This document shows, one piece after another, positions 11,749-62,103 of a stretch of 64,000 nucleotides of DNA (positions are counted from its first letter, which is position 1; each line of letters opens with the position of its first letter). The DNA is from Tubulanus polymorphus. Lineage: Eukaryota; Nemertea; Palaeonemertea; Tubulaniformes; Tubulanidae. The stretch spans positions 23,392,650 to 23,456,649 of the forward strand of contig NC_134026.1 of NCBI RefSeq assembly GCF_964204645.1. Direction: 5' to 3'. The position numbers and the translations under genes are program-made. Below the pieces are notes generated by a model. That model was not told the origin of the DNA. It saw only the letters and a list, made by a program, of their open reading frames with translations, and searched no databases.

Positions 11749-14839
<3,091 letters not shown>

Positions 14840-36700: not shown

Positions 36701-36808
36701 AATGATAAATGGGCAGATGATTCGGATGATGAATGGGAAGCTTTAGAATTAGAGCGCAGTAGTCTTACTAGTCAACAGCTCAAAGCGGCTAAAGCAACAG
36801 CGAAATAA
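18751..36808 (+). CDS. ARFGAP1: ADP-ribosylation factor GTPase-activating protein 1
   Basis: Twelve exons encode 548 residues: 18751-18810, 19302-19411, 19537-19708, 19798-20024, 20275-20343, 20616-20715, 20845-20901, 30871-30960, 32817-32876, 33997-34056, 35625-35758 and 36301-36808. Residues 1-~135 are the ArfGAP domain, with the C4 zinc finger at Cys22, Cys25, Cys42 and Cys45 and the arginine finger Arg50 in HRGLGVH, then [13 protein letters not shown]. The central part carries [16 protein letters not shown] and the Ser/Thr/Ala-rich [19 protein letters not shown], matching the curvature-sensing ALPS region. Exons 8-10 are short amphipathic units. The acidic C-terminus has repeated Trp motifs ([37 protein letters not shown]) like those that bind the COPI coat. 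It should hydrolyse Arf1-GTP on Golgi membranes. Intron 7 is about 10 kb, all others under 2.1 kb. A decayed partial copy of exon 5 sits in intron 5. Confidence 0.96.
20300..20521 (+). repeat. 117 bp tandem duplication covering the end of ARFGAP1 exon 5
   Basis: The last 44 bp of exon 5, its GT donor and ~70 bp of intron (20300-20416) are repeated immediately at 20417-20521. The copies differ at only a few bases. In the second copy the exon frame would change Phe to Cys and Gln to Glu. It lacks a proper acceptor and, if spliced in the phase left by exon 4 or 5, meets a stop, so it is most likely a dead exon. Confidence 0.9.
23020..23375 (+). repeat. Dispersed repeat, copy 1
   Basis: Parts of this stretch align with the reverse complement of 57530-57800: the word GGTCAAACTG followed by a tAGACCAGA block, GTGAGTCA..CCAGAACTA, and a segment ending AAGCACAGACCCATTT. 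Similarity is patchy, so the copies are old. A 13 bp perfect hairpin at 23231-23262 is unique to this copy. Nothing is encoded. Confidence 0.65.
23231..23262. repeat. Perfect 13 bp inverted repeat
   Basis: TATGAGCAATCAT and ATGATTGCTCATA flank a six-base loop, with the word CCCATACT on both outer sides. It lies inside the dispersed repeat in ARFGAP1 intron 7. Confidence 0.9.
25399..25500 (+). CDS. Possible alternative first exon of ARFGAP1
   Basis: An ATG opens 34 codons (ending in AEYLMMNGA) directly before a GTAAGA donor, in phase 0. The next ARFGAP1 exon (30871) also starts in phase 0, so splicing would join it in frame to [14 protein letters not shown] and make a product without the ArfGAP domain. 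The 100 bp upstream contain several CpGs. No homology supports the peptide, so this rests on frame and splice site only. Confidence 0.25.
26340..26900. promoter_or_regulatory. CpG-rich block in ARFGAP1 intron 7
   Basis: This stretch has clearly more CpG and GC than its AT-rich surroundings, including GCGGCCGC near 26343 and TTACCGCGGCGAAATT near 26398. Such blocks in invertebrate introns often mark promoters or enhancers. No coding sequence of note was found. Confidence 0.3.
26982..27003. repeat. TA dinucleotide microsatellite
   Basis: About eleven TA units in ARFGAP1 intron 7. Confidence 0.95.
27262..27338. repeat. GAGAGG hexanucleotide repeat
   Basis: About 75 bp of purine-only GAGAGG-type units on the plus strand, in ARFGAP1 intron 7. 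The apparent Arg-Gly open frame is a product of the repeat. Confidence 0.95.
32750..32771. repeat. CT dinucleotide microsatellite
   Basis: A run of CT units in ARFGAP1 intron 8, about 46 bp before the exon 9 acceptor. Confidence 0.9.
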
Positions 36809-39911: not shown

Positions 39912-41582
39912 TCACCAATAGAATGAAGTAGAAAGGAAACTGGCAGCCTTTGAAAGCCAGCTAGATGACTGCTCTTCATGAGGCCCACGTCTGGCCAGCG
40001 GTTGATCTCCTTCTCTCACAGGACTTGGTTCATCTGGTAAATATTGAGGCATGTCAGCTTCATTATGTTCATCATCTTCCGTCAGGTCTGCCCCAAATGC
40101 TAAAAAAATCTGAAACCAGATACAGAAATATTCACTTTCCCTGACAAAATAGATGAGCGGCGATTTTTTTTCTCATCGAGTAGAACTCAATTACAGGATG
40201 AGTAGGGAATGCTCATATATTCCTGAATTATGAATAAAAATGCAAATGGCTCCTAATTAAATATGGACTTTTTGGTTTACAAGTAAATGTATTACATAAT
40301 ATATCAGATGTTAAAGACAGAATTCAACTACACAGTTTTTAAGAAAATCATTTCGCTTACCTCATTTCCATCATCACCTTTTAACACTTGCTCTGCCGAC
40401 ATTAATTCACTCATGGCTATAGCGTGAGCTAAAACCTACAAATAGTTTCCGAAATGATTAGGGTACCCGTTGAAGATAACTAAGGCTGCATACGAACATA
40501 ATGAACCCACTGCAAACGATTACCTCTGGCTTCAAGTCAAGACGTGTCCGTATGATTGCTCTTTTCTTGGCAAAGTTAAAAGTGATGCTGATTACACCTC
40601 GAACATGGATGATATTATTTCGACAAATGTCCATATCTGCTTTATCTTTCAGTCCCTTTATTTGCAACACAATAGTTTTACCCTTACCGGCGTGTCCACC
40701 TAAAAAGAAATTCTTCTTACGTCTGTGCGCTCTTTTTGGCGTGATACACCTAATAAGGAATGAAAGAACTATTTCTCAGTGACAAATAGCAGGTTAACAA
40801 GAAAATTTTGACCAACCTCCCTCTAGCCCTAAACAACAGTCATAGTCTAAGAAAGATCTTTGCTGATAATTTACCCTTCAATTGAAGTATTGCTGGTGTC
40901 CTTAACTAAAACCGCTTTGTTACATTCTTGACTAAATATGGACAGTAGTTTTTCAGCCATGTTCTTCACTTGATTATCTGCAGTTCCACTGAAACAGATA
41001 TCACTATATAAGGGTTCAGATGAAGATAACGAAGTGAATTAATTATAATAAATACACACAAAACTAAAAATAAGAATAGATAGAAAAGAAATGTATTACC
41101 AGTAATAATACATATCAACTATGACGTTAACGTGGCATTTTAATCTACTTACTTAGCAACAAGGTTTTGAAGCTGTGTTTTCATGCCCATAAATGTTGCC
41201 AGAAATTCAACTTCACCTTTGCATTCGGTCAAAAGTAAAAGCGTCTGAAATAAAAATGGAGGAAAGTCTTTATCCATCAATTCATAAAAAGACTTACAAC
41301 TCAATCGACACCGAAACATTTTAAATACCTCTAGAGCAGATTTCACAATTTGGACATCCGAATTTGACAACACCATCACTAATCCACCGATACATGTTGG
41401 GTCCTGAATCGAAAAATTCACAATTAATTGAAAAATTATGTTATATTATTGGTAGCTTCTCCGAATCCATTCCAGATACTTACCCGAGCGAGAGCCAACC
41501 TTTTCAAAGGGTCAGATGCCATTACTTTGAATGCAGCAATAGCCAATGATCCATCAGTGCCAGAATTATTATCATTCATCAT
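39912..41582 (-). CDS. ARMC1: Armadillo repeat-containing protein 1
   Basis: Seven coding exons (41484-41582, 41329-41403, 41153-41244, 40875-40988, 40524-40749, 40361-40435, 39912-40109) encode 292 residues; human ARMC1 is about 282. The N-terminal half is an armadillo-type repeat (MASDPLKRLALARDPTCIGG, then VMVLSNSDVQIVKSALE). The middle has the family block RRKKNFFLGGHAGKGKTIVL followed by a heavy-metal-associated-like fold (CRNNIIHVRGVISITFNFAK). The C-terminus SSWLSKAASFLSTSFYW is almost identical to the vertebrate tail, an amphipathic segment needed for mitochondrial association. ARMC1 is known to bind the MIB/MICOS complexes and to affect mitochondrial distribution. An ACCEPTOR-like TTAG just before the ATG suggests a non-coding 5' exon, near 42010-42060. 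MTFR lies directly upstream in the same orientation. Confidence 0.96.
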
Positions 41583-42059
41583 ATTGCTAAAAATTAAAAT
41601 CTCAAAATTTTTACAGGTTTAAAGTTAGGAAAGTTAATGATTGGTATCTATTTATTTATACTATAGACTACTACAATCCCTAGCTAGCGACCTCCCTGAT
41701 AACGCCCTCTCTAAAGTTTGCTCTATTATCACAGGAATGATTCTTTCTGTTGTATGCCCATATATCATGGCATGGCTGGCAAGAATTGGCAAGGCAGAAA
41801 TATTTTTTCGGGAATATAAAATCTACTAACGAAGAAGAAGAAAGAAAAGTGTCAAAAAAAAGAGAGAATGCCAATAACTAACGTTAACATGGCCAATAAT
41901 GACGAATGTTACTTCTTCACCCATCAACAAACGACCTCCATCTGATATACAGTAGGCCCTACAATACCTAAATGACAAAGAAATTGAAGTTTTGCCATAA
42001 CAATTTTACCAAAGTAAGTAATGGTTCTGCAAGCGTATTGTAGTTGTTTAAATCTAGTC

Positions 42060-42110
42060 GCGTGTGACGTAGTACTTATTTCCGGGTGAGCCCCACCATC
42101 TAGCGGAATT
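42060..42110 (-). promoter_or_regulatory. Presumed ARMC1 promoter
   Basis: On the minus strand an ETS site (CCCGGAAAT, 42078-42086) precedes a CRE-like TACGTCA (42065-42071), followed by a possible non-coding exon with a GTAAAA donor near 42012. This is a common housekeeping promoter arrangement and lies ~480 bp before the ARMC1 ATG. Confidence 0.45.
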
Positions 42111-42124
42111 AATTGTAAAAATTA

Positions 42125-42170
42125 AAATACGGAAATGGACTGATATGAATATCAATCCAATTCCGTATTT
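42125..42170. repeat. 46 bp near-perfect palindrome
   Basis: Two 22 bp arms around a two-base centre, AAATACGGAAATGGACTGAT... pairing with ...ATCAATCCAATTCCGTATTT, with two mismatches. It sits just upstream of the ARMC1 promoter elements and could be a small foldback element or hairpin. Confidence 0.85.
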
Positions 42171-43189
42171 AGATACCGCTTCTCTGCATGGCATAGGCAC
42201 ACATTCTGTATAGATCGTGATCAAACATTAGTCTACTAGTACCTAGCCGTCGTTCCGCAAACGGTTGTTGGGAACCGGTAACAACGACTGGTATTCAGAC
42301 TAGGTCACACATTTGCATTAAGAATGTCAAAAACTGGATAGCTCAAATACATGTAGTTCGATACACACGCGCAATGATGCCTCAGTTGAAAGAATTTCTT
42401 CAGCAGAGATCCGTAAAATCATTTCAAAAGGGTTCTTAGAATAACTTCTTTTATTTACAAAAATATCATAACAAATCATTAGACAAACATTTTCATCGGC
42501 TGGTGCTTAAAAAAACAGAATCTTCTTCACAATGGAAGAATTAATGTTTTTATTTTACCCTCGAAATTCTAAAAACTAACAAAACATTCCACAAATGAGT
42601 CACACATGTTTTCATATCTTCGATGATTAAGTTTCCATATAAATGGCTCCATTCAAAATTCAACTATTTGCTGGAAACATTAGACCAAGTTTACATGATA
42701 ATAACTTTGTAGGCAGACATTCTCTAAATAATAATAATCTATAATCTTATTACAGTCTAGACAAATAAGTGATCATTGAAATCAGAGAAAAAGTTTTTGA
42801 TTTAGTTTCCACATTTCTCAATTCATTTGAATTTCATTCTGAAATACTTCATCAACCATACACACACTTAATGCTTCACTTAAATCCATTCCATAAAAAT
42901 ATCTCTAGCCATTGAAAGGATTTTCTTTTCAAAAGGCGCCCTTGTAGTAGACAGCCACCAAAAAATTAAAATTGATCAAACTCACACTTCATCACAGACA
43001 AATGCTATTTTCCATAGTGCATTAGTAATTTCTATTCTCTAAAGGCTTATTAAACAAGCTGAAACATCATCTGAAAAGCTCAAACTTTCAAAAATTCATG
43101 TAGATGTTTACAATGTATGTTGCAGTATAAAATTTTAACCTTAAATAAAAGAAAAGCTAAAATAGGGCCAGGGCAGATCTATAAACCGG
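42171..43189. other. Short MTFR-ARMC1 spacer
   Basis: About 1 kb between the ARMC1 promoter region and the MTFR stop. It should hold the MTFR 3' UTR; a minus-strand AATAAA lies near 42450. No coding sequence was found. Confidence 0.5.
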
Positions 43190-45362
43190 TCAGCAATTTC
43201 TCTCAGCTAACGGTGAAAGTAGTGATCGAACAGTCTGATTTGATTTTCGACGAAAACTACTCGGCTTTACCAAAGACGGTTTCTCCTGAAAAATTAAAAA
43301 ACATTCACATTTTCAACATGTATGTTTTTTGCATTGTTATTTACTCAATGACTTATGAAATCCACATTGTTTCAGTTCCACATAGTTTAAGTCTTAGAGA
43401 ATCACATGTACATGTAGTTGATATGGAGAGATAGTCGTTACCAAGGTACACAATTTTCCAGCTATTATCAAGTTCATTTCTGTGTTGTGTTTATACTTAC
43501 AATTCCGGATTGGACATCGTTCGGAGAACATGGACTAGCTGGATTATTGATATTCTCTTTATCAGGACTGTAAACTCGTGCATTAGCAAACTTTTTCTTC
43601 AACGCAAATGCAATCATATTAGCGGGATCATCGGACAGCTTCGGAGCTTGTCGTAATGGAGTTCCACCTGGCGATCTGAAATATCAAAATTGCGGGTAAA
43701 AGTACAAATCAGTTTAAAATGATGAGTGAATCGCAGATCACTAACCTTGCTATTGAACGCAACTTCACTGTTCCAAGCCCCTTCAGCACTTCTCCCATGT
43801 TTGGCGTAGACTTATTTCTACCTGGTATGTCTATCGGTTCAGAAGTGCCCGCTTTTTTAGCCTTATTCTGCAAATACATGTAATATAAACATCAGGCCTA
43901 AATATTACCAAGTGTTACAAATAGGTTAATGACAATCGACATCAGTCGTCCTGTAGAACTAATTGTTTTAAAACTGACCAACTTCATAGAAGTCCCGATC
44001 ATTTATGATTGAAGCTCACCTGTTTAATGATATCAGCTACTGTCGTTTTTGTTCGATTAACTGGTATTGGTGGAGGTGGGGGTGGAGGTGGTGGAGGAGG
44101 TGCCATAGTACGACCAATGACAGCTGGAGGTGGTACTGGTATCGCAGGTGGTGGATCCGTCACTGTTATCGATGGAATAGGTAGTGGTGTGCTTGTAAAA
44201 ACTGGAAGTAAAGTACAGAAAAATATTAATTCAAGATGTATAAAGGGATTCAGCTCTTTCAAGAAAAATCTTGACACATTTTCCAATAGCTCTTTACGAA
44301 TTAACAAACACCTTCTTGTTGATCCAGTGCAGATTTATCCGTCATTTGCATTGTAACGATACTTGCTATCTGTTGTCTCATTTTCTCGAGCTCGTCCTGC
44401 AGTTCTGAAATGCGCTGTAGCGATACCGGATCCGGCGTGGAAAAACTTTGGTATGAACTCTTCTCACTGGGAGGCGTTATGGGTATATCAATATCACTGC
44501 TGCATGCACTTTCTCCAATTTGTATCCTTGAAGAAAGGAAAAGATGATTGGTCCAAAATAGCATTTAGGCAGAAGTATATTATCCAGACTAAAAATCAAG
44601 ATAAGGTCATAAAGATTTAAGCCCAGTTTTTGGTGACTTGAGTCGTGCTCTGGGACTAGCATCAGTAACACTTACTTATGTCGAATTCCATTACAAAATG
44701 ATTGCTCATCTAACCAAACTACATCCCCGAAATTAGCGCAAGACGGAAGAGATGACAGAGAGACAGAATCATTTGACTGTTCACCCAAAGATCTCCTACG
44801 CAATATCTGCTTATCTCTTACCATACTGGTCTAAAATGATAAAATTCATTCTATCTTGTTCAGAATGAAATAAACCTTGACAACAGGTAATACCGCTGAG
44901 GGTCATATCCTGAATTTACCTGAATGCGTATACGTCTTGCTGGATGAATCGGTATTGCGCTACCAATTCTACGAATCAAACTCCTTCTCTTTATTTGTCT
45001 TTCACCATCTGGGTCATCTACCAACCAATCCGGTATTGGCTAAATAAATCCACATCAAAAATAAAATATATCATGACACTGGAACAACAGAGACCACTTA
45101 AACTTAAATCCTTTCAGGCTGAATAATTGCTGAACTGCATCAAAATTCAACAGAGAGAAAGCTATCGATTTTCTAATGAAACTTGGAGTATGACAGATAA
45201 TCCGGACTAAAAATTACCACCTTAATTAGTATTTTAACCGACTTACACGTAAGGCTTACTCTACAATACATGAGAAAAATTTTGGTGAACTACCTGAAAC
45301 AGATCGAATCCCAAAAAATCAAGGACAGTTCTTATAACACCAAAGAATCCAAACACGTCCAT
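43190..45362 (-). CDS. MTFR1: Mitochondrial fission regulator (MTFR1/FAM54 family)
   Basis: Eight exons (45294-45362, 44920-45039, 44676-44830, 44312-44526, 44020-44201, 43746-43867, 43501-43675, 43190-43285) encode 377 residues. The N-terminus MDVFGFFGVIRTVLDFLGF and the basic SLIRRIGSAIP match the family. Then come SMVRDKQILRRRSLGEQ, a coiled coil (LQRISELQDELEKMRQQIAS), a proline-rich tract with eleven Pro in a row, and the conserved C-terminal block TVADIIKQ ... MGEVLKGLGTVKLRSIARSP ... MIAFALKKKFANAR. Vertebrate MTFR1, MTFR1L and MTFR2 promote mitochondrial fission and respiration; this appears to be the single ancestral type. The last exon (EKPSLVKPSSFRRKSNQTVR..) has a good acceptor but no homology I can recall; reading through the seventh exon's donor would end eight codons later instead. 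Confidence 0.92.
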
Positions 45363-48300
45363 CCAGTTTGACTAAATCAAAACTTCCAATTCTTCCAGGG
45401 ACAGAGAGATGGAGGAATATGAACCGACAATAGTAGTTAGGTCGAGATTTTTCTTAATCATCCACAAATAAAACCTAAAAAAATAAAAAAGATAGTTATT
45501 CGTTTATAAGCTGAAAGAATCCGTTTAGGTCGACCTGACCATTTTTTTACTGATTCGATTTGATATTAAATTGCATTATTGGATTGAATTTTTTTCTACT
45601 ACATCATTCTAAATCTAATCGTCTGAACGTCGACGGAGCCGTGTCGCGAGGATCGATGACGATAGGACGACGATGTGTAAGATATATATTCAATTACAGA
45701 AAAATATCAAGAGAAATTCACGGATTACTAGTGTTATTTCGACAAGTCTACTGTCTTACTCAGTGCTTAAAAATGATGAAAGTAAAATAGTGTGTGAACG
45801 AAAACTTTCAAAGCTTCCGCATTTCCCTCAGAGTCGGGGGCTAGTACTCGAGTTCGAATCCCATAAATTACAATTCAATTCAATTCAAATCTTTATTCAG
45901 CATAAACTGTGTCGTAAAAAATCCCTTTAATCATTCATTGCACTAACGTTACTTGGGAAATTGTAAATGTGATTGTTTGTTTTTTTATCTCCTTTTTTAA
46001 TCTCTGTATATAGCCCATCATGCTTTCCATGAAATGAATTTGTACCGTAATACTTTTGGCACGGCGGTATATATTGTATTCTGATAGATGGCACCTTTGA
46101 AGTTTCAAGACCAAGTTGCTGTAGCATTAATTTTGTAAAAAAAATCCTTGAAGGTAGCATAATACATATAAGGTCCGTCCAAGAATTTCATTTTGTACAC
46201 AAGAGCATTCTACTAGTAGCCGAAATCAGACTTTACCATGGCAGCCTACGGTGAAATGAAAAACGAAGAAACGTTTTATCTAATTCCATTTTATTCATTA
46301 AAAAATTTAAGTTCACTAGTAGCTTTTAGATCTTAACTTTACAAATATGATTTTATTTTACATGATTCATAACACTTCGTAAAACACATTAGATTTGATG
46401 GAAATGGACAATAAGATTTTGACAATTGGCTGCTGAGCAAAGAAATTCCCTGCACAGTCTCTGATGGCACTATTTGTACATAGAAATAATAGAAGCACAA
46501 AAATAATTTATTGCTAAGGTATAATTCATAAATAAATATGTCTTTTAAAAGATAAACACTTATTGACGACAATTGTGTGTACAGAGCATTCATAAGGCAG
46601 TGCAGAAAATTTCATTCATTTTGTACCAAACTATTTAAGTCCACTAATAATAGGCCTATGATTTCAGCATGTTGGTGCTGTATAAAAAGATTGGCGATGA
46701 GCCTGAAATCTTTTCCGAACAATAACTAATAGGATGCACATTCCCTGTTTATCCGGATGAAATACTACTGTATATGGTAGCCGCCAGACCTATCATAGCT
46801 CCTTGGCTTAGATAATTTTTTTTCTGTTACTTCTTTTGTACAAGACAAGTAGGCTTTAAAAAATCCATCAATACGCTAACATTAGTGTAGTAGAAGTTGC
46901 ATAAAGAAAAAGCTTGTTCAGAAATCATCATCTTTCATGTTCAGGTACTATCAATGTCAAACCAAAATTTTAAGCCCTTTTGACCCTGACGTTTAATCAA
47001 TCGTTGCTTGGTATGATAAATTAGACAACCCTGGTACCGGGTATGGAGATATCAATTAAGACATCTGAACAGTGCTAAAATTTCAGAATACAACTTCAAC
47101 CATAAACAACATATGATCAACTAATTCTAAAGATCTAAGTATTTTAAAAGTTTCTGAAAATACGTGTACACAGTTTACAATACGTGGCATTTTCTGTACA
47201 GCATCTTTTTCATTAAACAATACATCATCATGATCAGCATCTATTCACAAATAGGAGGTATATTACAATAACTTAAATCATGATAAACGTTTTTTGCCAT
47301 ATTTACAATTATTAGCATTATGTAAAATGACAATGGGTCTGGAACTATGGAAACAAGTGCTTTTAATTTTCAAAATGGAACTGAGCAAACCATTGAGCAA
47401 TGAGAATAGGACTGACTCAAGTGTTTTAGAACTTCAATTACGATGTACTACAAATAAAGCTTATCTTACATGAACTGCAGTTAAAGCATTACTCTAATTA
47501 AACTTAATTGATTTTTCACCTAGTGACCAATAGAATATCAGTAATGGAATGTCAAATCAGTAGCTTCAGCGCATGAAATTCAGCAAATAAAAAATTTTGA
47601 AGTAGGGCCTACACTATGAAAAGATTTTCATCAGGATTCACTCAAAATTCCAGTAAGCAATAGTAGGGAATAGTGTGTGCTTTTTCATTGGATTTATCGA
47701 TATAATGTTATCATACACCCAACAATAATCATTAATAGCTTATAATCGTGAAAGTAGTCAAATTACAGCAGATATAGGTTTGAACATCAGTTGATGATAG
47801 AGTTAATGGAATTCTTTGAACCTATCATGAACAGCTGGTCTAATACATCCATACGGTAAATATGGTATAATATCGAAGCACTAGTTTCCTGTATATGAAT
47901 TATTCCATGAAAGCTAGTCAACAGACATTTTGCCATCTGCGCAGTTGAAATGATGATGACAACGAAATCAACAGTTCTCTTCCATGTGGAGAATGACACA
48001 GTTCGTTTGTTAGATGATGTCCTAGAACGAATTGTGCAATGAGAACAAGTGCTTTAAATTTGGATTAATCCTATCAATTCAAAATGCATTCAAACCACAA
48101 ATCATCTCTAGATGGATGAACACTAACATACACAGAACACATGGTTTTTACATATCGGAGAATGAAAGGAAAAATAATATACGATACAGATTAAATTTCG
48201 GTCTACTTATATAAATAGATGCTCTTCTACAGTGGTACATATTTTCTGGTTAAATATTTGTTGCATATTGAAGATTCCATAAATTGACATGTACTACAAT

Positions 48301-49832
48301 ATACCAGCAAGTGGCAAGTTGAAAATTCCTCTGTGTATGGAACCATCACGTTGATCGAAATGATGATCAACGCTTAGCAAATTTCGACTCAGAAATTGTG
48401 AAGATGTAAATGAGTTAGACTGTATTTTGAACCAATGATATTATGCAACTGATCTGCAACCACTTCACTGTTTTTTGTTTTCATTTGCGAAAGATATCCT
48501 CAGTTACCCCAAAGAAGAATGAATTCACCCCGGTCATCACAAAACCAATAAGAACACTATCGTATTTACAGAGATTTCAGCCACCGAAATTGATAATGGG
48601 AATCAATATAATAATACATATGTTAGTTAAAAGTTTAGATGACAACCAATTACGATAAAAATTGAATTTCAACTAATATCAATTATATTTGTTTATAATA
48701 TGATCAATATATAGCTATATTTTCAGTATATAAAACCCTATGCTCGTTTTTTTTTGCTATTAATTACATATCCTTTTTAATCATAACTTGAGCTGCACTA
48801 CTTTGGTATCAATTATTTATTCAATTTTATGAAACGAGTACCTTATCCACAATATATCATGATATCATTTCATACACTTTACATAAATGAAATGATACAT
48901 GATTATAGATCAATGTTAAAAAACCATTCAAAAATGAAAAGCGAACATCAAAATGCTCAATATATCCACTTGCATTTGCAAATTAAAATTACTTTCATAT
49001 AAAGAAGCTGCCAATAATACAGACAATTTCTCAACATTCTAATGGATGAAAAATCAGTATTTGCGCAAACAATGTCACATTATTTGTATTGATCTTCCAT
49101 CAGAATGATAGATAGATGAAATCAGAAAATATTGGCTATATTTGCACATGTACCTTTTAGAAACATAACAATCAAACATTCAGCGACAACATATTCACTA
49201 AATTTAACTATGAAAGCTTTATGATGAAAATAAAACTGTTACATTGCCATCTTGAAATATGCAATTTTAAAATACACAATTTCCATCAGTAATGTAAACG
49301 AAAACAATGAATTCACTCGTAAAAAATGACCATAACAACTTGATATTTGTGACCATTTCTCATATGCATGTAGGCCCACATTTGCAGAAAGGTACATTAA
49401 CTGTGAGTGTTCACAGTTTTTAGATATAAGCTTGCATGCACTTGAAATCGCTGTTTGGTATTTTCATTGAATATACAGTGCATCAGCTTACAATACATTT
49501 CAGTTGTTCAGGAAAATACGAGAGAAAATGAAAATACGAAATTGTGAAATAGCTAGTGACATTCACCAACAATAAAATATAGCCCACACAATGCAGCAAG
49601 TATCACCAATATATCACAAAACGACATTACTGACTGTATAGTAGGATATACAACATGCTTCTTACACATTCTTATAAAAAAATATGACATGACATCCATT
49701 ATTTCCTTACAAGATATTAACAATAATTAGAATCAGGAGACAATTAAAAAAACTATTTGAGCACAAAGAATCCAGTGAATACCGGTATATGATTCTGTAC
49801 ATACATGTATCTGAAGTTTTGTTAAGATATTC
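45363..49832. other. Gene-poor interval between MTFR and PDE7
   Basis: No coding region was recognised in this AT-rich stretch. A CpG-bearing patch near 45625-45680 could be the MTFR promoter. A lone pol III B-box-like GAGTTCGAATCCC lies at 45850-45862 without an A box. Part of the interval may be PDE7 3' UTR. Confidence 0.4.
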
Positions 49833-51073
49833 TGTTGAAGTTTCACTATTTTCAAGCCAAAGATGAGCCAAATGTACCGAGTGTGCCCCTACCGGGATTG
49901 AAAGCAACCTAGTTTACCCAGTGGTACCGCATAATCTTCAGGAATTGGCTTAATTAGAATACCGGTAATGACAATTGACCCGTATGTTGAATTTAAGTTT
50001 TTCGACTTCTTGGATGCTTTACACCAAAATATTCATTGTTCATTCAATATATTCAGCAAGGTTTTTTCACATATTGACAACACCGTTTACAATATAGTTC
50101 TTAAAGAGGAATTTCACAACAAATTGCAGTCTAGTTGGTCAAGCAAACCAAAATATTCACTTCTCAAGCAAAGAAAGCACCATACACGAGATTGGAAACA
50201 TAATTTGTAACTGTCCAGTAACAAGTAAAGTTACAAATAATGGCTTATTCATGAACTGTTTATTGTTTGTGGTGTTAGCCAGTGCTGCTTGATCTGAGAG
50301 TTGCACTAAAAATGGCTATAATACCACCGACTGTAAATGATGGGTGTTTTCTTTTTCAGCAATGTCATTTTCCCTCGCAATAGATCTGTTGAAGTTTTAC
50401 TATTTTCAAGCCAAAGATGAGCCAAATGTACCGAGTGTGCCCCTACCGGGATTGAAAGCAACCTAGTTTACCCAGTGGTACCGCATAATCTTCTGAAATG
50501 ATGATATAGTTCCGACTGTAAATGATGGGTGTTTTCTTTTTCAGCAATGTCATTTTCCCTCGCAATAGATCTGTTGAAGTTTCACTATTTTCAAGCCAAA
50601 GATGAGCCAAATGTACCGAGTGTGCCCCTACCGGGATTGAAAGCAACCTAGTTTACCCAGTGGTACCGCATAATCTTCAGGAATTGGCTTAATTAGAATA
50701 CCGGTAATGACAATTGACCCGTATGTTGAATTTAAGTTTTTCGACTTCTTGGATGCTTTACACCAAAATATTCATTGTTCATTCAATGTATTCAGCAAGG
50801 TTTTTTTCACATATTGACAACACCGTTTACAATATAGTTCTTAAAGAGGAATTTCACAACAAATTGCAGTCTAGTTGGTCAAGCAAACCAAAATATTCAC
50901 TTCTCAAGCAAAGAAAGCACCATACACGAGATTGGAAACATAATTTGTAACTGTCCAGTAACAAGTAAAGTTACAAATAATGGCTTATTCATGAACTGTT
51001 TATTGTTTGTGGTGTAAGCCAGTGCTGCTTGATCTGAGAGTTGCACTAAAAATGGCTATAATACCACCGACTG
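49833..51073. repeat. Tandem duplication downstream of PDE7 with captured PDE7 exon fragments
   Basis: Unit A (49833-50332, about 500 bp) and unit C (50573-51073) are nearly identical. Between them is unit B (50388-50517), the same sequence with its middle deleted. Each junction carries a 55 bp segment (50333-50387 and 50518-50572) that matches PDE7 coding bases 52529-52583 in the same orientation with one mismatch. The few differences between A and C (for example one extra T in a T run) imply a young event. Confidence 0.93.
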
Positions 51074-51458
51074 AAATGGTATAATAAATACATATATGCA
51101 TTGATTTTTTTGTACTTTACAAAGTTTAAGTAAATAGAAAAGACAATGTTTCTTTGTACACTAATCAGTGCCAGTGGCTGCGTGACAATTAAGGCAATTT
51201 CACTGGACCCAATATGTAGTATTCCTAGTTAAATATGCAACCCTGCTTCAGTTTTATATCTTGTGAGACGCTTTATATTAAACAATCAAAAATGAATACT
51301 CCCTATGAGACAAAATATTCAGTCTAGTTCCGTGAGCATGATCTCTCTAAAAGATTTGAATCCCATCTTGTATTGAATACGTGGGCGAAAGCAGACATTG
51401 AAAAACTGAGATGATAGACCAAGAGAGAGGCGCCAGCCGGCTGTGACATAAGTCAGAA

Positions 51459-51491
51459 CATGGACGTATAATCTAGATTATAACGTCCATG
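51459..51491. repeat. 33 bp near-perfect palindrome
   Basis: CATGGACGT and ACGTCCATG flank a central ATAATCTAGATTAT with a single extra base on one side. An AACAAC simple repeat (51496-51515) follows directly. It lies 220-250 bp past the PDE7 stop codon, so it may be in the 3' UTR as a hairpin. Confidence 0.85.
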
Positions 51492-51495
51492 GTCA

Positions 51496-51515
51496 GAACA
51501 ACAACAACAACAACA
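51496..51515. repeat. CAA trinucleotide repeat
   Basis: Six to seven CAA units immediately after the palindrome downstream of PDE7. Confidence 0.9.
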
Positions 51516-51707
51516 GTGAGGTGTGTAGTAGAGTAGTCGATAATATCACAGGTATGCTTGAATATGAGGATGTAGATGGTTGAATCCTATAGAGCTCTGG
51601 CGAATCCCTGAAAAAACATTGAAAACAAAAAGGTTAGAATGATGCGTTCCTCATGGTCTGTATGAGGCAGATATTTTCATCAATCACCTGAGTTTATTGC
51701 TTTATGT

Positions 51708-54700
51708 TTATTGTAGTTGGATTGGGCGAAATAGCCTCGAATCCAAGTTGTCTTCTACTGGTCCTTCAGATGCTATATCGGGATGAGCATGCATGTGAAT
51801 GGTTGATGGAATCGAAGCACCCGGATCAGACATTCGCTTGTGACGCAATCGCTCTGGCAAACTAGTCAACATCTCCTTACGTTTTATACCACCGTCATGA
51901 TGTCGCCCTCCTCGATTGTGGAATGCCTGCTGAGGCAACCTGTTAGAATCACCATCTACAGGAATTGAAGCCAGTGGCTCCCGTGAAGTCCGTGAAGACA
52001 ACTTAGTTGATGTATAAGTTGTCTTGCTTAGCATTTTTTGTACAAATGGAAATGATGCCCTTCGATTTTGCAAATACTTCTGGGCCTCCTCAGGGGTTGG
52101 TGATAGGCTGGTTAAGCGGCTTAATTCGATGCTCGGACTTAAAGTAGTGATCCGCGGTCGCTGCGATAAAAGACCTTCTAAACTATGACTACGATTGTTC
52201 CCGGAGATTTTGTCCAACGATGCAGCTTTGTCTCGTATATGTTGATATGAGGTAGACTGATTCAGGTTCATGCGTGGTGAAATTTTCAACACATGCGGAA
52301 AACTTTGCCGGCGAACCAAATAGCTTGGGGTCTCGATTTTCGGCACGCTCGGAGGTAAACTATGTCTACGTAATTGCAATCTAATAGGCAACTCGGCTTC
52401 TACCTCATCAGGGTCTAATTTGTATCTTGTTTCGGTAACTATTTCTGTTTCACTAATTGACACTCCATCTGCTGTTACTAATGTCTCTGTCGAAATCACC
52501 GGGGAAAAATTTGATAAACATTCATCCAGTAAATGATGGGTGTTTTCTTTTTCAGCAATATCATTTTCCCTCGCAATAGATCTTTGTTTTTCTACCTCAG
52601 CTTCTTTTAGGACGTTTTGCCAACTCTCACGGTTTTGAAGCAAGTTATTCATCATCATCTCTCCCAGCAGCGTTGGTAGAAAACGGAACCATTCTTGAAA
52701 CAGAGGTCCTACGACGAACTGTATAAATCCTAAAAAGCAAAAAAAAGACAGTTTTAAGTAAATGCTCCAATTTTCCTCAGTAATAAAACAGCAACTGCTG
52801 TTGCTAAAGCCTGGTTATGATCATTGAATTTCAACACAAAATATGTATCAACCGACTCGATGAGTCACATATTGTTTGATAATGTGACCCATAAGACTAA
52901 ATATATAGTACAATCATACTATGCCCGAATACACTCAAATTAAGTTGTACAATGCCGGGTAATAAATTTTTCCCCAAACTATCTCTCTAAAATTTAGATG
53001 AAATTGCGGTGTAGATAGAAACGAGGATTTTTAGGCTAACATGATGGAAGATACACAATGAGCTGGTTAGATGTTAATAAAAACAATTCAAAAACGCCCA
53101 AGGTGAATTTTTCCATTGTTTGAATAGTTCTAGTTTGAATAGTTGAAACCCAAGCCCCTGTCATCGGACATGCAGAATATAATCGTTCGAATGAATATGA
53201 TTGATGAATCGTGAAATCGGATCAACTTCTCAAGCAAAAACATCATATCACTAACGACATTCATCAACATCAGGCAGTGGTGTTGGTAGATGCTGTGATG
53301 ATGGTGAATGTATGATCTGTTTCCACCATCGTTGACTCACTATTGATTTATGCAGCTCTTTTACCCTGTCTAAATCAGTTTAGGCTGTTATGACAATTTT
53401 GCGACAATACAGACGAAATTGAAGCTGTTTTTAGGACAATTTATGTCGCACCGAATATGATGTATTATAACCAATATGGACTATAAGAACAACAGTCAAT
53501 AGTCCAAATCAACGCCAGGGTGTAAATCATACTGCTTCAATTCTTTATCAATTAATCGATCAGACACAACCAACATTTTTGCCAAGATCTTTAATCTATC
53601 TAATAACACTTGGCTGTACACCAGCAGCAGCTTATGGCATTTGAAAACCAAGCTATTTTTAATAACTCGGGTAAAAGTTCAAAAACAGAATCAGATCAAG
53701 TGGCTGCAGGGAATTAGCCTGAGAAAATGTATACAGCATAGGAAAAATGAAAAAGATATATTTCATCTCATTAATGATGCTCATTAGTGAAAATCTGGCT
53801 AATCTTTTCATAGGAAGCAATGTATTTTGAAATTCCCTTCAGGTTCTAAGACACATGACACATCTGAAATTTGAGATATAACCTTAAGCTAGCAGTATCA
53901 GTTTCAAATAATCTGAAAACTGTTCATTATAACTAATCCTTTGGGAGATACATTTGAACAACACAAATGTTAACATTCTGAACGGTTAAGCTGTAGAGAA
54001 TTACAGAGAAGACATTTAGTATTACACATAGACCAGTAACCTAGAAGTATCAATCAATGATAAGAAGTAACACTTGGAAATGTTCACTTATTCATCCATC
54101 GAAACAAAGCATTCACCTTCATTCAGCGATATTTAAAGAAAGTAATTAGTGAAATCAGGGCAGGAGAGCACCTGTAGAGCATCAGATAGTGCAATAATAG
54201 AGGTATGAATTGGTAAAGAGCTCAATGCAAATTCAAGATCTGAACTGACTGATGCTTTTCAACTCCCCGGTGTAAACGTGGCCAGTTCGCAACCAAATAA
54301 GAATGTAATTCTTACCAGATTGAATTTTGGCAACTGTGGTATTATTTCTATCACAATTAGGTGTAACCGGAATACCTAACTTCTTCTCAAACTTTCCTAC
54401 AATGTGAAGAAGATTGAAATAGAAATATCAAGTCAAACAATGAATATGACCCTATGGGTAAAATAATGGAAACTTAGATCGCGTACAGTTTGATTCTAAA
54501 AATCCAAATTTACCTTGTCTGAAGAACTCATCGCAAACACTATAACTCCATTTCTTACTGAGTTCCCAATGGCGACACACATTGCAAATGTCAGCACATT
54601 TTAGCGCAATCTGAAATTCAGTTACATTTAGAAAATGATTAGATTTATGCGGTTAACTGATAAATGTGTACGCTTAAGGTTGTCAGAATTGATTGCTGAT

Positions 54701-57700
54701 GGTAAAGTTTTGCCAATGAAAATGCGTTCGAGTCACATCTGGTTACCGTCAATTTATTTTGTAAATGCATTGAAAAAGAAATCCTGCTCTGATAGATCAA
54801 TTTACATGATGACAATCTGATCAATTCAACACTGAAGGTGAACGGATTCAAATGAATACAAAATTCAATCTATCTTGCCTCCAACAAATTTTATCATTAA
54901 AACTTTATCGTTTCAATCGATAAACAGCATAAACATGTTGACATTTGATCAGAAGAACACGGAATCGGTGCACAAGGCAGCCGGTAAATCTGTTGTGCAA
55001 TGTATTTGAGATTATTCCAGGGAATATTTTCATGACAGTTGAAATCCCTGAAACATTTGTTGCCAAGGTAACTAACAGCATAGTGCAGCACAAAAAGAAA
55101 TTCCACATTGAACTAAACTACGAGGTACAAACCTGCATAACAAAATGCCTGTGGTCATCACGGGCTTTCAGATCGAAATCTTGATTGTCTAAATGCCTCT
55201 GAAAATACACAAATGAGAAAATATCAAAGGTGTGAGATTCAATGGTTATTTGAAAGCATCACTTTCACATAATAAGATAACATTAAAACCAACTTCATTA
55301 TTAGGCTTTAGGGGATTTGGATTACAATTATGAGGAAAATAGCTTGATAAATGCTTATATAGTACATGTATCAACATCAATCTGCTGAAGCCTCATTTTT
55401 CCAATTAATTCAATGAACATATCAATTAGACCGCTTAGATAGTACACTGAGTATTCCTAATTAATCGGATAGGAACTTTTCATCCCGAGTACAAGTGCAT
55501 GACCAAAGACCGATTTTGCAAGGATCTGAGAACAATTTGGTAATAACATGAGTTATCAACAGCATATCAGCGTGCAGACATAATGACTGAGTCGGAGGAT
55601 CCCAGGCAAAGATTCCATGTTGTTGATTGTTGCCATGGCGACCAGTATATCATTCTCGGCAGACAAGACTAATGGCAATTTTTCGTTCATGGCAAAAACT
55701 GTTATTACCGTCAAACCACGTATAGGAAAATATCATGACCTTTCAATAGGGGATGCCCCAAGTTATCTTCAGGCGACAAGTCGAAGAGTCCTTACAAGCG
55801 CAATTAGTTTTATTTAAATTTTACGATGCACACATTCAGAAACAGCTTTAGCATTCTAGCCCAATCAAAATTGCTATTCCAGGAAATAGACTCACTAAGA
55901 TTTTGAGATAGTAATGCAATAGCCATCGTGACAGAAATTCTGAGACTCGATAAGAGAGTTATGCACTTATCTAATGCAAATGCTTTCTCAGATGGTCAAT
56001 TGCAAATGAAAAAAAAAGGTATTATCAGTTCAACGCATCAAATTTCTGCAATTGTTTTCATGTATGGAAGAATTTTTCCACTGCATTATGGTGGCATTTT
56101 TGGTATTGTTTCTAATAATCATTTTCATATATACTAGCTCGAGGTCAGATTGATATATTGATAGTGTAGTGCAAATACTTGTGAATATTCCATTGGGTAG
56201 TTGATACTGTCTGGGAAGTTACAATAGAATTACATTTAATTTGTACTTCATTGAACATGATTCCTTAACTCCTAATCCAATTTTTTTTTCACAGACACCA
56301 TCAAGGTTTAGTGCAATACCTTGAACTGAGACAAGAATTCCTGCTGCCTGGTGATATCAGTAGCCAATATGAGTGACCGTAGTTGACATTCAAGTTTCTC
56401 CCTGAAGCGAAAAAAAGTGTCATTGATCATTATAGGAGTACACCTGAAATAACATTCTATATCTGGTAACATGTCACATATAAACGATAAACAAACAGTA
56501 TTTTGACTTGAAATATCATTTCATGCAGCGGGCTTAGTGATAATGCATGAGGGAACAGTTAACGGAGATTATTAAGTAAAGCCAGTATCGCATCGGTGCA
56601 GGCTTTTTCAAAAACAGTGCCATTAATACGCTAATGCAAGTTATGATGTTCACAGGTAGCCATTTCATATAGCGGTACCGATGCTCCCATCTATTAACCA
56701 AGATAAGACGCATTACATATAGCATTAGAACAGTTAGATGTGTTCAGCGTATTTCTGAGACTACACAGCATTTAAACCCGTATCCCAATTTGGGTCAAAA
56801 GAATAGTAAACAAGAAGAGTTATACAGTATTCATTGAGTACAGTAGAAACAGACACAGATATCGGTCTCACTCGGATATCGGAGCAAGAAATTCAGCGAA
56901 AGAATCCACTGAATTCCGATGAGCAGTATCTACATCTCGGAATAAATTATGTTAGATTACATGGAAGAAAAATAAATTGACTGGACATAGCTATATGATA
57001 GCATACAGCCTATTCAACCTTGCAAATAGCAACTGTCATTACGCACAGATTCATGACAAGTATTTGTAACTTCTAGTTTTTTTATCAATGATCTGCATAG
57101 CTATTTAGCCTAAATGACGATACTTCAATGTCATTTCCGCCCAAGATTTCACGAAAGCTTCTTATCTTATTTCATCATATCCGGGACAACAGTAATACAC
57201 GACAGTGCGCACACGGCATGGTTATTATACATATACATACCACTGTTTGGAGGTAAAATGATCGAATACGCATGACTCCTTTATTATACCTAATGCGGTT
57301 CTCCAGTGATGGTTTTCTAGCACCGATGTATTCTACAATAAAACAACACATAGCCGATTAGAAATTTACAAATTTACAGTACGACACACTTGTGTACAAC
57401 ATCCTTATTCATGAATTCCACTCCATAAAGCACATTCAATGACTAAATAGGGAGAAAAGCATCCAATAGCAATAGAAATATACAATCATATTTCTCTGAT
57501 CCTACAAGATAGAGATGATATTAGCTGCGACCCGGGACAATATCTTCCCCATATCGATAAAGCCAGATCCAACAGTCCAGGCTTGTGCCAAATGGGTCTG
57601 TGCCTGTTTGACATGGGGCAAATTTGAGTGACCAAAAATTTTCAACCAGGCCCCGTGCCTAATTCAAGCACAGGTCAAAATGATTCTATGTGAATGCTTA

Positions 57701-60700
57701 TTAGTTCTGGAAGTGACTCACAAGATGTGGTCCAAATTTGACTCTGGTCTAGTCCAGGTCAGTTTGACCCTGGCAAAATCCCCTCCATGGGGCTATGATC
57801 ATCAAGCAACACATTAATCTATGATTCAGGGACATTAATTTTGTGTATAACCCGTACCTGATATAAATTTGCCAAGTGGTTGTTGGTTGCAATTAGAAAG
57901 GCTTGGTTAACTCCAGGATGGTCGATGTCATGAGTCGCTGCTGACAACAATGCCAGCATAGTCTCCATCGGTGTGACGCACAGCTTAAGCTGAAATAAAT
58001 GAGAGAAAAATACATTTCAATGCAATATTTGGGATGAGAAACAGTGATAAATGATAAATGATCTTAATCATTTACTTATAATCAGTTGTCAGATGATATC
58101 GAATGCTAAACTTTTCAGAGTTTTCAGAAAAATAGATATGGCCCAATCGCGGCTGCGTTCCGTGCATTGTCGTCATCGCTGAACTATCTCTGTGTTAACG
58201 CATACTAATTTGAAAGTAATTTGTGACACAGTAGCGATGACGCCAGCTGTCACCTACGGCCTTCTATGATAGCGGAGAGTAGATGAAATTATCACCAGAC
58301 AGAAAAACGTGCGTTAAACGGATGAGTTGATAGTAATTTTCTACAATGTAACAGACACCACGCCGTCCCTGATAAATTCAAGTTAGATTAGTTCCCAGAC
58401 ACTGGCTTGATGACCAATGAATACCGCTATTGTTGGTGGAATAATTTCAGTAGGTTTGCCGAGTACACATTAACGTCTCCTGTGTGTCGACCATGCGCTG
58501 AAAATCTGTACAGAGACGGATAGATAGTTTCACCGAAGATGCTTTGACCGAGGAAAGTATCAGTCAGTCAGTACATTACACCATACTTAAACCGCTGTGA
58601 CATTAAAAGCATGTGAATATACATGCATGCTCCCTTCATACGAAGGACTTTTAAAAGAAGCTAAGTTTGTATGAATACAAAATATTGTGACTGTGAATGT
58701 TAGAATTTCTTGTTGAAGCAATTATTAGCCATCTATGTCTACGTAAAACTGAATACGTGATAATTTCTGACCATTGATGCAATTGTAAAAACCCAAAAAT
58801 ATCCCACACCCAGTTCTACAGTTATTGCTGAAAAATTTGATTTTGTTGAAATAAGAAATTTCGAACCTTTAACTGTGGAACTGGCTCCAAATGTTCAAGC
58901 ACATCATTTTGTTATTCAGTACACCATATTATCACCTACATATTACATTATTACTTTTTTCATCAACTTAAAAAATTTTAGTCTCATAGCAACAGTGACA
59001 ATGCCATGCATTCAAAAAGAATAATGTATCCGCAAAGTCATATGATAGATATGCAAAAACAAAAACTATGAAATTGGATAGAACAGATTTTGATTCTCAT
59101 TAAAAATTTCAGCTATTCAGATGCAGAAATTATTTCGACGTACCAATATGTTCCTCTTTTTTACAACATATTTTTCACCATGAATTGTTATTATCTTCAC
59201 AGGCCGCAAAAGCTTTTTTCTAAGCAATAGCTATGCCGAGATTTAACCAGGCACTTTACATTAAGTGTTTCTTTACAGACTTCAGCACCACAAGGAAAAT
59301 ATAATACTCCCTATTTCATAGCCGGCTTTTAGATCTGACAGGCATGTGCTCCCATGTAAATCCCTTTACAGGCAACAATGTGGATCTAATGTTGCAAACG
59401 CTAAATCAGACCCATCAAACCTCTCTACCTTTGAAGAGCTTAGGGGCTTAATTTTCTGAGTGACTAGTGACTAGCTATTATCAATGGGCAGACTCACCAC
59501 CGGAATTTTTGCACCATTTTAGTGAATTTAGTCTAAATGCAGCAAGCCATGTTTAAGCGTGATTTATCTGATCATTTCTCAGTGGAAATAAATAGGCTTG
59601 TATTATATTTTCAATCGTTCACGTTGTCATTGACAAACATTACAATTGTAATTATATAGAACTAAGGGTTCACTTTACATGTACATAAAAAACCTAGGTT
59701 CTTAAGTCTTTATTTTTTGTTCTGAAGTCTTTCATGGCTATTGAGGCTGTTCAAGATATTATTGGAATTAGTGTAGCTCAGCTTACTTTTAAAAAGTGGG
59801 CTCTAAGTTTCACGAAAAAGTTAAACTAAGCTCAGCTTCCCGTTTTCAATAAGCGAACTACTAACTTTTAACTTTTTCGTGATACTGGACCCCGGGCTTC
59901 TGAAGTCATTCATATAAATATATATTTATGAACATGGTTTAGAATAGAAATATATCTAGGAATGTCTTGCCTTCTGCATCCGATTTGTACGTTTATGCAG
60001 CACCTGATAATGAACAGATTAGAAAAATATATGATAAATGAATGGCAAATAGTTTTTCATCAGAAAATAACTACAAAATGGGGCCAAAGTATTCATATAC
60101 TGTGGATTTGATTTGGTAGCTCAGCCAAATATTTGATGAAAGAAAGGTTTTGTCACCATAGAGTTTTGTCAAATGTTTTTAGTAGATTGACAAAAATATA
60201 CGTAAGCAAACCCATCTTTTAACTACCGGTATCCACGGCATATGTAATTCTAATTTTCGATAATCAATATACTCATTCATAAAAATGACATAAAATGTGG
60301 ATAGGTCTTTATCCCAAATGTGTTGAGATTGGTGAAGATCAGTAAAGGAAGCCTTACTTTCAAACTTCAATCAAAAGCCAAACAACATACCCTAAAGAGA
60401 TTGACATGGCGAACCAATAAACCATAAATCAATCAAAGTAATACGCATTGGCATCAAATCAAACAGAATTCATTCTCAATATTTACCTGTGTATGTTCAT
60501 CCATATCAAAGAAATGAATGAAATTGTATATATTCATAAGAACAGAGAGACAAATAGAAATTTCATCAACCATCTTTCAGTTGATTGTTGCTTGCCATCA
60601 AAGACATGTCAGTGATGTTATACTGATGATTGAAAAGTTATCGTTTTTGATTATGATTAGCTTCTCTTTATCAGGTAGGAGGCAAAAACGAACACGTTCA

Positions 60701-61864
60701 ACCTTCATCTCAGCTGTCAATGGTAGCGTTCAATTCAGTGTGGTGCTACCTGAATATCAAAAATTGAAATATCCATTGAACGCTCTTTATAGAAGGTAAA
60801 ACGAAAAAACGTGTTCATTTCAGCTGTCGCCAAGAGCTTTCAATCATGATCAAAGGTGAATTTCGATTCTACGTCGTCTTACGATTACGGAGGGGGAATG
60901 AATTCCGCTGCATCTGCATGTATGTAATCACCAATAAATCATGAGATAATAACAAAGGCCGGCTAATCGTCAGCATGGTTGCGCTGCTGATAAATATCTC
61001 GGATCTAATCGCCACCAAACGATGAATTGACGCCGAATCACACGCGAAATTGCGGATGAACAATGCGGGTACAGCGCCGCAGGGGCGAAATTAACAACCG
61101 AAATGATGATGTATACCGGTCAATAATTAATGAGTCACGTAATTGTGAAAGTGCTCATATTTTCATTGGACCAAAGACACAAAAATGTCACCTGCATATT
61201 CATATATTGATTGAATTCGGGTTTTGTATGATCTGAACATAAGCTACAACAGTTTAATACGATCTGAGCTATGTACTGGTAAGTCACAATGATCTACTTT
61301 TTGTCTAGGCCGAAAAAAAGAAAAGAAATCATTAACACGTTGAATCAACAGGTGCTCATTTCTTAGAATGGCCGACAAAACTCGTTGAGTGCCAGAACAG
61401 GTGAAACTGCTGCATTATATTACAGACTCAGTGCAGAAAGAGAGAGGTGTTTTTTGAGAAAAAGAATCGCATGTTTTCACCATCTCAACATCCAGGCACC
61501 AATATATGAAGAGCACGTGAATACAATCTGATTTATGGTAGTTGCTTCCAATTTCATATTGCGCATTGTTCTCGTCATAAATTGTATAATAATAGGGAAA
61601 GCGTTACAAAAAGTATGTATGGATTTTGCATTTGAAAGGACTCATTTTCGCAGCATGAAAGCTTGCTTTGATAAGAATCAATAAAATGTCAGACTTTTCC
61701 TGCAGGTAAATTTATTACGCACAACTGGCCGACCTAGGCTATTATTTGCGCGAAATAAATTTCTCTTTGATTAGACGAAACGAAATAATGACAGCGACGG
61801 GCGGTGACTGTGGCTGGCTACAGCGGCTCAGATCACTGCACCGATAAACCCCAGATATCACTCC

Positions 61865-61895
<31 letters not shown>

Positions 61896-62103
61896 CTGTA
61901 GTAGTAGTAGTGGTCGCATGGCGTCATCGGTCAAATTAAATCAGCAATGGACTGACAGCGTAACATACAATTAATTCAAATATACACGATGAAAGTACAT
62001 ACCTGACTTTCTTGCAGATAGCAGTGCATAGCTTGTGTAACGTCTGCAGCATGTACGGCATGGTGGTAAGGATTATTACTATGGTAACTGTCTTCAATCA
62101 ATG
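51708..62103 (-). CDS. PDE7: cAMP phosphodiesterase 7, 5' end missing
   Basis: Eight 3' exons are readable: 62003-62103, 57858-57989, 57241-57332, 56320-56401, 55133-55198, 54514-54610, 54316-54396 and 51708-52729. All phases join. They cover most of the class I PDE catalytic domain: [20 protein letters not shown] (proton-donor and metal-binding His), [13 protein letters not shown] (metal-binding His and Asp), [42 protein letters not shown] (metal-binding Asp) and the invariant Gln in [24 protein letters not shown] is diagnostic of PDE7 rather than PDE8 or PDE4. The enzyme hydrolyses cAMP. The last exon continues for ~300 residues beyond the catalytic core, far more than the short vertebrate tail; it is low-complexity and carries RRHSLP, RRQSFP, RRASFP and KRMSDP. 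The stop codon overlaps a minus-strand AATAAA. N-terminal exons lie right of 62103, probably outside the window. Confidence 0.95.
57530..57800 (-). repeat. Dispersed repeat, copy 2
   Basis: In PDE7 intron between exons 57858 and 57332. Its reverse complement shares blocks with 23020-23375: GGTCAAACTG with a following TAGACCAGA word, GTGAGTCA with CCAGAACTA, and GTCAAACAGGCACAGACCCA. The two copies are diverged and in opposite orientation. Confidence 0.65.
59810..59882. repeat. Inverted repeat with perfect 16 bp core
   Basis: TCACGAAAAAGTTAAA (59810-59825) and TTTAACTTTTTCGTGA (59867-59882) are exact reverse complements around a 41 bp loop; weaker symmetry continues outward to a CCCGGG-like end near 59893. 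This looks like a foldback MITE in a PDE7 intron. Confidence 0.8.
60487..60573 (-). CDS. Possible alternative first exon of PDE7
   Basis: Within the intron between exons 62003 and 57989 an ATG opens 29 codons (ending [11 protein letters not shown]) to a CAG/GTAAAT donor in phase 0. The next exon (57989) begins in phase 0, so in-frame joining is possible. A CpG-rich block at 60865-61080 lies upstream on this strand. The product would lack the first metal-binding His of the catalytic domain. No homology supports it. Confidence 0.2.
60865..61080. promoter_or_regulatory. CpG-rich block in PDE7 intron
   Basis: Unusually many CpGs for this AT-rich window (for example ATTGACGCCGAATCACACGC and GTACAGCGCCGCAGGGGCG). 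It may be an internal promoter or enhancer of PDE7. No coding sequence was seen. Confidence 0.3.
61865..61911. repeat. GTA trinucleotide microsatellite
   Basis: About fifteen GTA units with one interruption (GTAGCTGTAG), in the PDE7 intron just downstream of exon 62003-62103. Confidence 0.95.

Follow-up and report, generated by a model that had tools for sequence, protein, structure and literature searches.

ARMC1, MTFR, and PDE7 are three consecutive genes on the minus strand of the window, a 64-kb stretch within a 31.9-Mb contig of a nemertean genome assembly (267.8 Mb in 77 contigs). Their models were assembled manually from splice borders and read as follows:

39912..41582, minus strand: ARMC1 coding region, in-frame splice model of 7 exons, 292 aa, complete (exons 41582-41484, 41403-41329, 41244-41153, 40988-40875, 40749-40524, 40435-40361, and 40109-39912)
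43190..45362, minus strand: MTFR coding region, in-frame splice model supported by PF05308, 8 exons, 377 aa, complete (exons 45362-45294, 45039-44920, 44830-44676, 44526-44312, 44201-44020, 43867-43746, 43675-43501, and 43285-43190)
51708..62103, minus strand: in-window part of PDE7, 8 exons in one open spliced frame, catalytic domain and C-terminal tail (exons 62103-62003, 57989-57858, 57332-57241, 56401-56320, 55198-55133, 54610-54514, 54396-54316, and 52729-51708)

The ARMC1 exons are bounded by GT/AG borders and splice into a single frame of 292 aa (41582-39912), while the start exon of MTFR is placed at 45362. PDE7 has a long C-terminal tail, and a further PDE7-like exon (DWNFNIFTLDKLTNG) lies ~5 kb outside the window. 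A reading made earlier from the sequence only had proposed that the three genes are consecutive and transcribed in the same direction, and both points are confirmed by the splice models, the Pfam PF05308 match, and the PDB matches. It had delimited the block at 39912 and 62103. The first edge is exactly the final base of the ARMC1 stop codon; the second has to be given up, since the exon past the window edge means that 62103 is not the end of the PDE7 gene.

As NCBIfam and Pfam contain no usable ARMC1 model, the predicted ARMC1 protein was aligned with human ARMC1. This alignment yields 37% identity (101/270) and a score of 477, as compared with a maximum of 50 in 300 shuffles. The human sequence used has the correct residue at all 7 of the 7 positions numbered in PMC11980836, and can therefore be trusted. 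In the same comparison, the C-terminal targeting segment (residues 268-282) is nearly unchanged (SWLSKAASFLSTSFYW versus SWLSTAANFLSRSFYW). Residues 151-210 return a weak match with PacS HMA domains (E 0.044) and are devoid of the metal-binding CxxC motif, and the single-sequence fold of this HMA-like exon is poor (pLDDT 65). A genome search with the ARMC1 protein did not find a second copy. MTFR is assigned to Pfam PF05308 (Mito_fiss_reg; E 4.5e-32, model positions 12-244 out of 244 in total) with 112.6 bits versus a gathering score of 26.3, and is the sole match genome-wide; vertebrates possess three MTFR genes, and the single copy thus speaks against a vertebrate. Searches for COX1 and for an annelid linker globin were negative, and those for 18S yielded at most a fragment. 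Lastly, the best PDB matches of PDE7 are human PDE7A chains (302 bits), the predicted catalytic domain scoring 168 bits with PDE4, 140 with PDE1, 134 with PDE8, and 125 with PDE9. Judged by these scores, it is nearer to PDE7 than to any other PDE family tested.

The gaps between the coding regions measure 1.6 kb (ARMC1-MTFR) and 6.3 kb (MTFR-PDE7). They contain the following features:

41582-41590, minus strand: splice acceptor TTTTTAG, 5 bases before the ARMC1 ATG
41583..42429, minus strand: ARMC1 5' region, with a CpG-rich stretch at 42000-42499 (observed/expected 1.2)
42430..43189, minus strand: MTFR 3' region, two AATAAA signals (42554, 42455)
45363..46099, minus strand: MTFR 5' region, CpG observed/expected 1.42-1.44, putative promoter of its own
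49831..51076, no strand assigned: tandem duplication in the PDE7-MTFR gap, unit of ~740 bases, copies 99-100% identical

On the minus strand, Pfam scans covered every frame between 39 and 64 kb; on the plus strand, they covered 36.8-39.9 kb and 45.0-51.7 kb. In these intervals they report no other Pfam family above the cut-offs. The earlier statement that nothing recognisable separates them thus holds for protein families, but the gap between PDE7 and MTFR does contain the tandem duplication, which includes a 55-base scrap that matches positions 52529-52583 of the PDE7 last exon at 98% identity. This duplication is either recent or an effect of the assembly. Against an overall CpG observed/expected ratio of 0.81, the CpG peaks of ARMC1 and MTFR, along with the separate poly-A signals, argue for separate promoters. 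The acceptor preceding the ARMC1 ATG may reflect leader splicing or an intron in the 5' UTR, and the latter would account for it equally well. Positions 60600-61999, inside a PDE7 intron, reach CpG observed/expected values of 1.2-1.36 versus 0.81, and might be an internal promoter or a control element.

On the left, the trio adjoins an ARFGAP1-like gene that is convergent with ARMC1 across a gap of 3.1 kb. This gene spans 19526-36808 on the plus strand; its ArfGap domain (E 4.1e-11) was detected in one exon and its C-terminal exon was assigned by eye. Beyond it, two TTC38-like genes, also recognised by eye (13614-14676, minus strand, and 15699-17970, plus strand), are inverted relative to each other, apparently by local duplication. 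The right neighbours, by eye, are a PDZ protein, a serine dehydratase, a glutamate receptor, a GPCR, and an ankyrin-type protein. RRS1, ADHFE1, and COPS5 accompany the trio at 8q13 in cattle and human (gene list of PMC7601430). Here, RRS1 is found on contig C10, ADHFE1 on C8, and COPS5 on C2 at a distance of 4.2 Mb. The trio is an island within a rearranged landscape, and the conserved sharing is limited to ARMC1, MTFR, and PDE7.

The conservation with vertebrates proposed by the earlier reading is borne out by two printed gene orders. On cattle BTA14, an association study gives CYP7B1, ARMC1, MTFR1, PDE7A, DNAJC5B, TRIM55, and has nothing but uncharacterised LOC entries between ARMC1, MTFR1, and PDE7A (PMC7601430). 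The three genes, their order, and the absence of any named gene between them are therefore common to both loci, whereas the flanks differ, CYP7B1 and DNAJC5B there being replaced by the ARFGAP1-like and PDZ genes here. At human 6q23, a deletion study gives SGK1, ALDH8A1, HBS1L, MYB, AHI1, PDE7B, MTFR2, BCLAF1, MAP7 (PMC7809258): PDE7 again adjoins MTFR, but ARMC1 is missing and BCLAF1 stands beside MTFR2. From the pairs PDE7A/B, MTFR1/2, SGK1/3, and MYB/MYBL1, we infer that the 8q13 and 6q23 regions are products of the vertebrate genome duplications. Since PDE7 and MTFR adjoin in both duplicates, their adjacency is older than these duplications, and the nemertean locus pushes the age of the whole trio further back. 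A literature search found no published report of the trio in an invertebrate, and scans of viral contigs with PDE7 and ARMC1 were negative.

Orientation is another matter. Human MTFR1 is presumably inverted relative to ARMC1 and PDE7A, and each of the two vertebrate regions would have MTFR and PDE7 tail to tail. In the nemertean they are head to tail, so that a single MTFR inversion would separate the two states. If orthologues are assumed to be reordered at random within each conserved linkage group, chance alone would yield 0.05-0.16 conserved exact trios per genome. It is thus very probable that the ARMC1-MTFR-PDE7 block was present in the common ancestor with vertebrates and has been retained in both lineages.

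Two of the three products are known partners. ARMC1 binds MTFR directly, the D37R substitution in ARMC1 abolishes this binding, MTFR is degraded without ARMC1, and the copy numbers of the two proteins are closely matched (PMC11980836). Compared with the human sequences (numbering cross-checked with PMC11980836), two of the three MTFR-contact residues of ARMC1 are kept (D27 as D24 and D37 as D34; D49 is replaced by S46). In MTFR, three of the four residues contacting MIRO or TMEM11 are kept, namely the MIRO contact F76 (F97 here) and the TMEM11 contacts R35 (R42) and R39 (R46), K29 being replaced by E36. These largely kept contact residues suggest that the ARMC1-MTFR complex is probably present in this animal. 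MIRO, TMEM11, and DNAJC11, the other known members of the complex, were not recognised beside the block. Furthermore, ARMC1 and the MTFR family both belong to the 30 genes common to the honey bee and vertebrates that are missing from three dipterans (flies and mosquitoes), Tribolium, Bombyx, and C. elegans (PMC2656531, Table 1). For a given partner, the probability of being listed as well is ~0.4-1%. Their shared listing is consistent with joint loss, with the qualification that fast-evolving short proteins may escape the cut-off used there, and suggests that ARMC1 and MTFR were lost together, as a unit, by several insects and nematodes. The two had been listed together there 16 years before the interaction of their products was shown.

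Taken as a whole, the best explanation is an ancestral block held together by shared cis-regulation, to which we assign a probability of about 45%. The property kept appears to be proximity rather than orientation, since every member of the trio starts from a 5' end of its own and MTFR is apparently flipped as compared with vertebrates. The genes would be interspersed with distal control elements, most plausibly located in the large PDE7 introns, that serve more than one of them, and breaks within the block would be selected against. A matched output of ARMC1 and MTFR, as subunits of one complex, may contribute to the retention. Taken alone, the mechanism through distal shared elements is a tentative proposal, somewhat less secure than the reading as a whole. 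PDE7B and MTFR2 adjoin without ARMC1, which hints at a tie between MTFR and PDE7 for which protein partnership does not account. The sequence-only reading had likewise invoked a regulatory reason, which is not borne out at the level of the upstream regions: short words common to those of ARMC1 and MTFR are no more numerous than in random region pairs. Its other suggestion, a joint control of two mitochondrial proteins, fares better in that the ARMC1 and MTFR proteins belong to a single complex, but it leaves the membership of PDE7 unexplained and is at most plausible.

The closest competitor is neutral inertia, according to which the ancestral block survives because few breaks fell inside it and the adjacency has no function. 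Animal genomes are known to contain many adjacencies of ancient origin, and those that rearrange slowly keep many adjacencies without selection. Three neighbouring genes present a small target, and the short gaps offer few break sites. On the other hand, the flanks have been replaced on both sides and the other 8q13 genes dispersed, so rearrangement is active in this neighbourhood; the local inversion of MTFR, if its vertebrate orientation is as presumed, further implies breaks inside the block, and the order was still kept. We consider inertia rather unlikely as the sole cause, and place shared cis-regulation slightly ahead of it.

Less probable is a retention due to dosage, with ARMC1 and MTFR side by side for the sake of a mitochondrial complex of fixed ratio and PDE7 as a passenger. 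The direct binding, the degradation of MTFR without ARMC1, the matched copy numbers, the kept contact residues, and the presence of both genes on the 30-gene list all speak for it. Conversely, the words upstream of the two genes are at background, the remaining complex members are not recognised next to the block, and protein partners are seldom linked in animal genomes. Moreover, the pairing of MTFR2 with PDE7B in the absence of ARMC1 indicates that co-dosage is not the whole reason for the retention, and the MTFR-PDE7 part must be left to shared control elements around PDE7 or to plain inertia. A fuller version, in which dosage matching has kept these two genes of a mitochondrial positioning complex adjacent since early animals, with PDE7, which acts in cAMP breakdown, in the same control region and the pair being lost together, is slightly less likely still.

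An operon or read-through unit with trans-splicing might be suggested by the common strand and by the ARMC1 coding exon opening with an acceptor 5 bases before the ATG. We rejected it as highly improbable in view of the gaps of 1.6 and 6.3 kb, the poly-A signals proper to MTFR, and the CpG-rich 5' regions proper to MTFR and ARMC1; the presumed vertebrate orientation also differs, and the acceptor is accounted for equally well by a 5' UTR intron. A secondary adjacency of independent origin, for which there is room insofar as the comparison covered vertebrates alone, is just as improbable, given that three vertebrate adjacencies are matched in two duplicated regions and given the low chance expectation per genome.

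If the block is general in animals, a protein interaction that was not discovered until 2025 could have been predicted from conserved gene order, and the trio would offer a defined three-gene locus at which shared enhancers, dosage matching, and the absence of any cause can be set against one another. It is a conserved block of an ordinary kind, to which the ARMC1-MTFR partnership adds a testable twist. It resembles the genomic regulatory blocks and their bystander genes in that unrelated genes have long been adjacent, one of them with large introns. However, PDE7 does not encode a developmental transcription factor, and the control elements are putative here. The nearest parallel to the partnership is the conserved microsynteny of PDI and RhoGDI (PMC5722932), in which a conserved neighbourhood likewise served as a pointer to an interaction between the products, whereas in the present case the interaction of ARMC1 with MTFR was already known biochemically and it is the neighbourhood that is newly seen.
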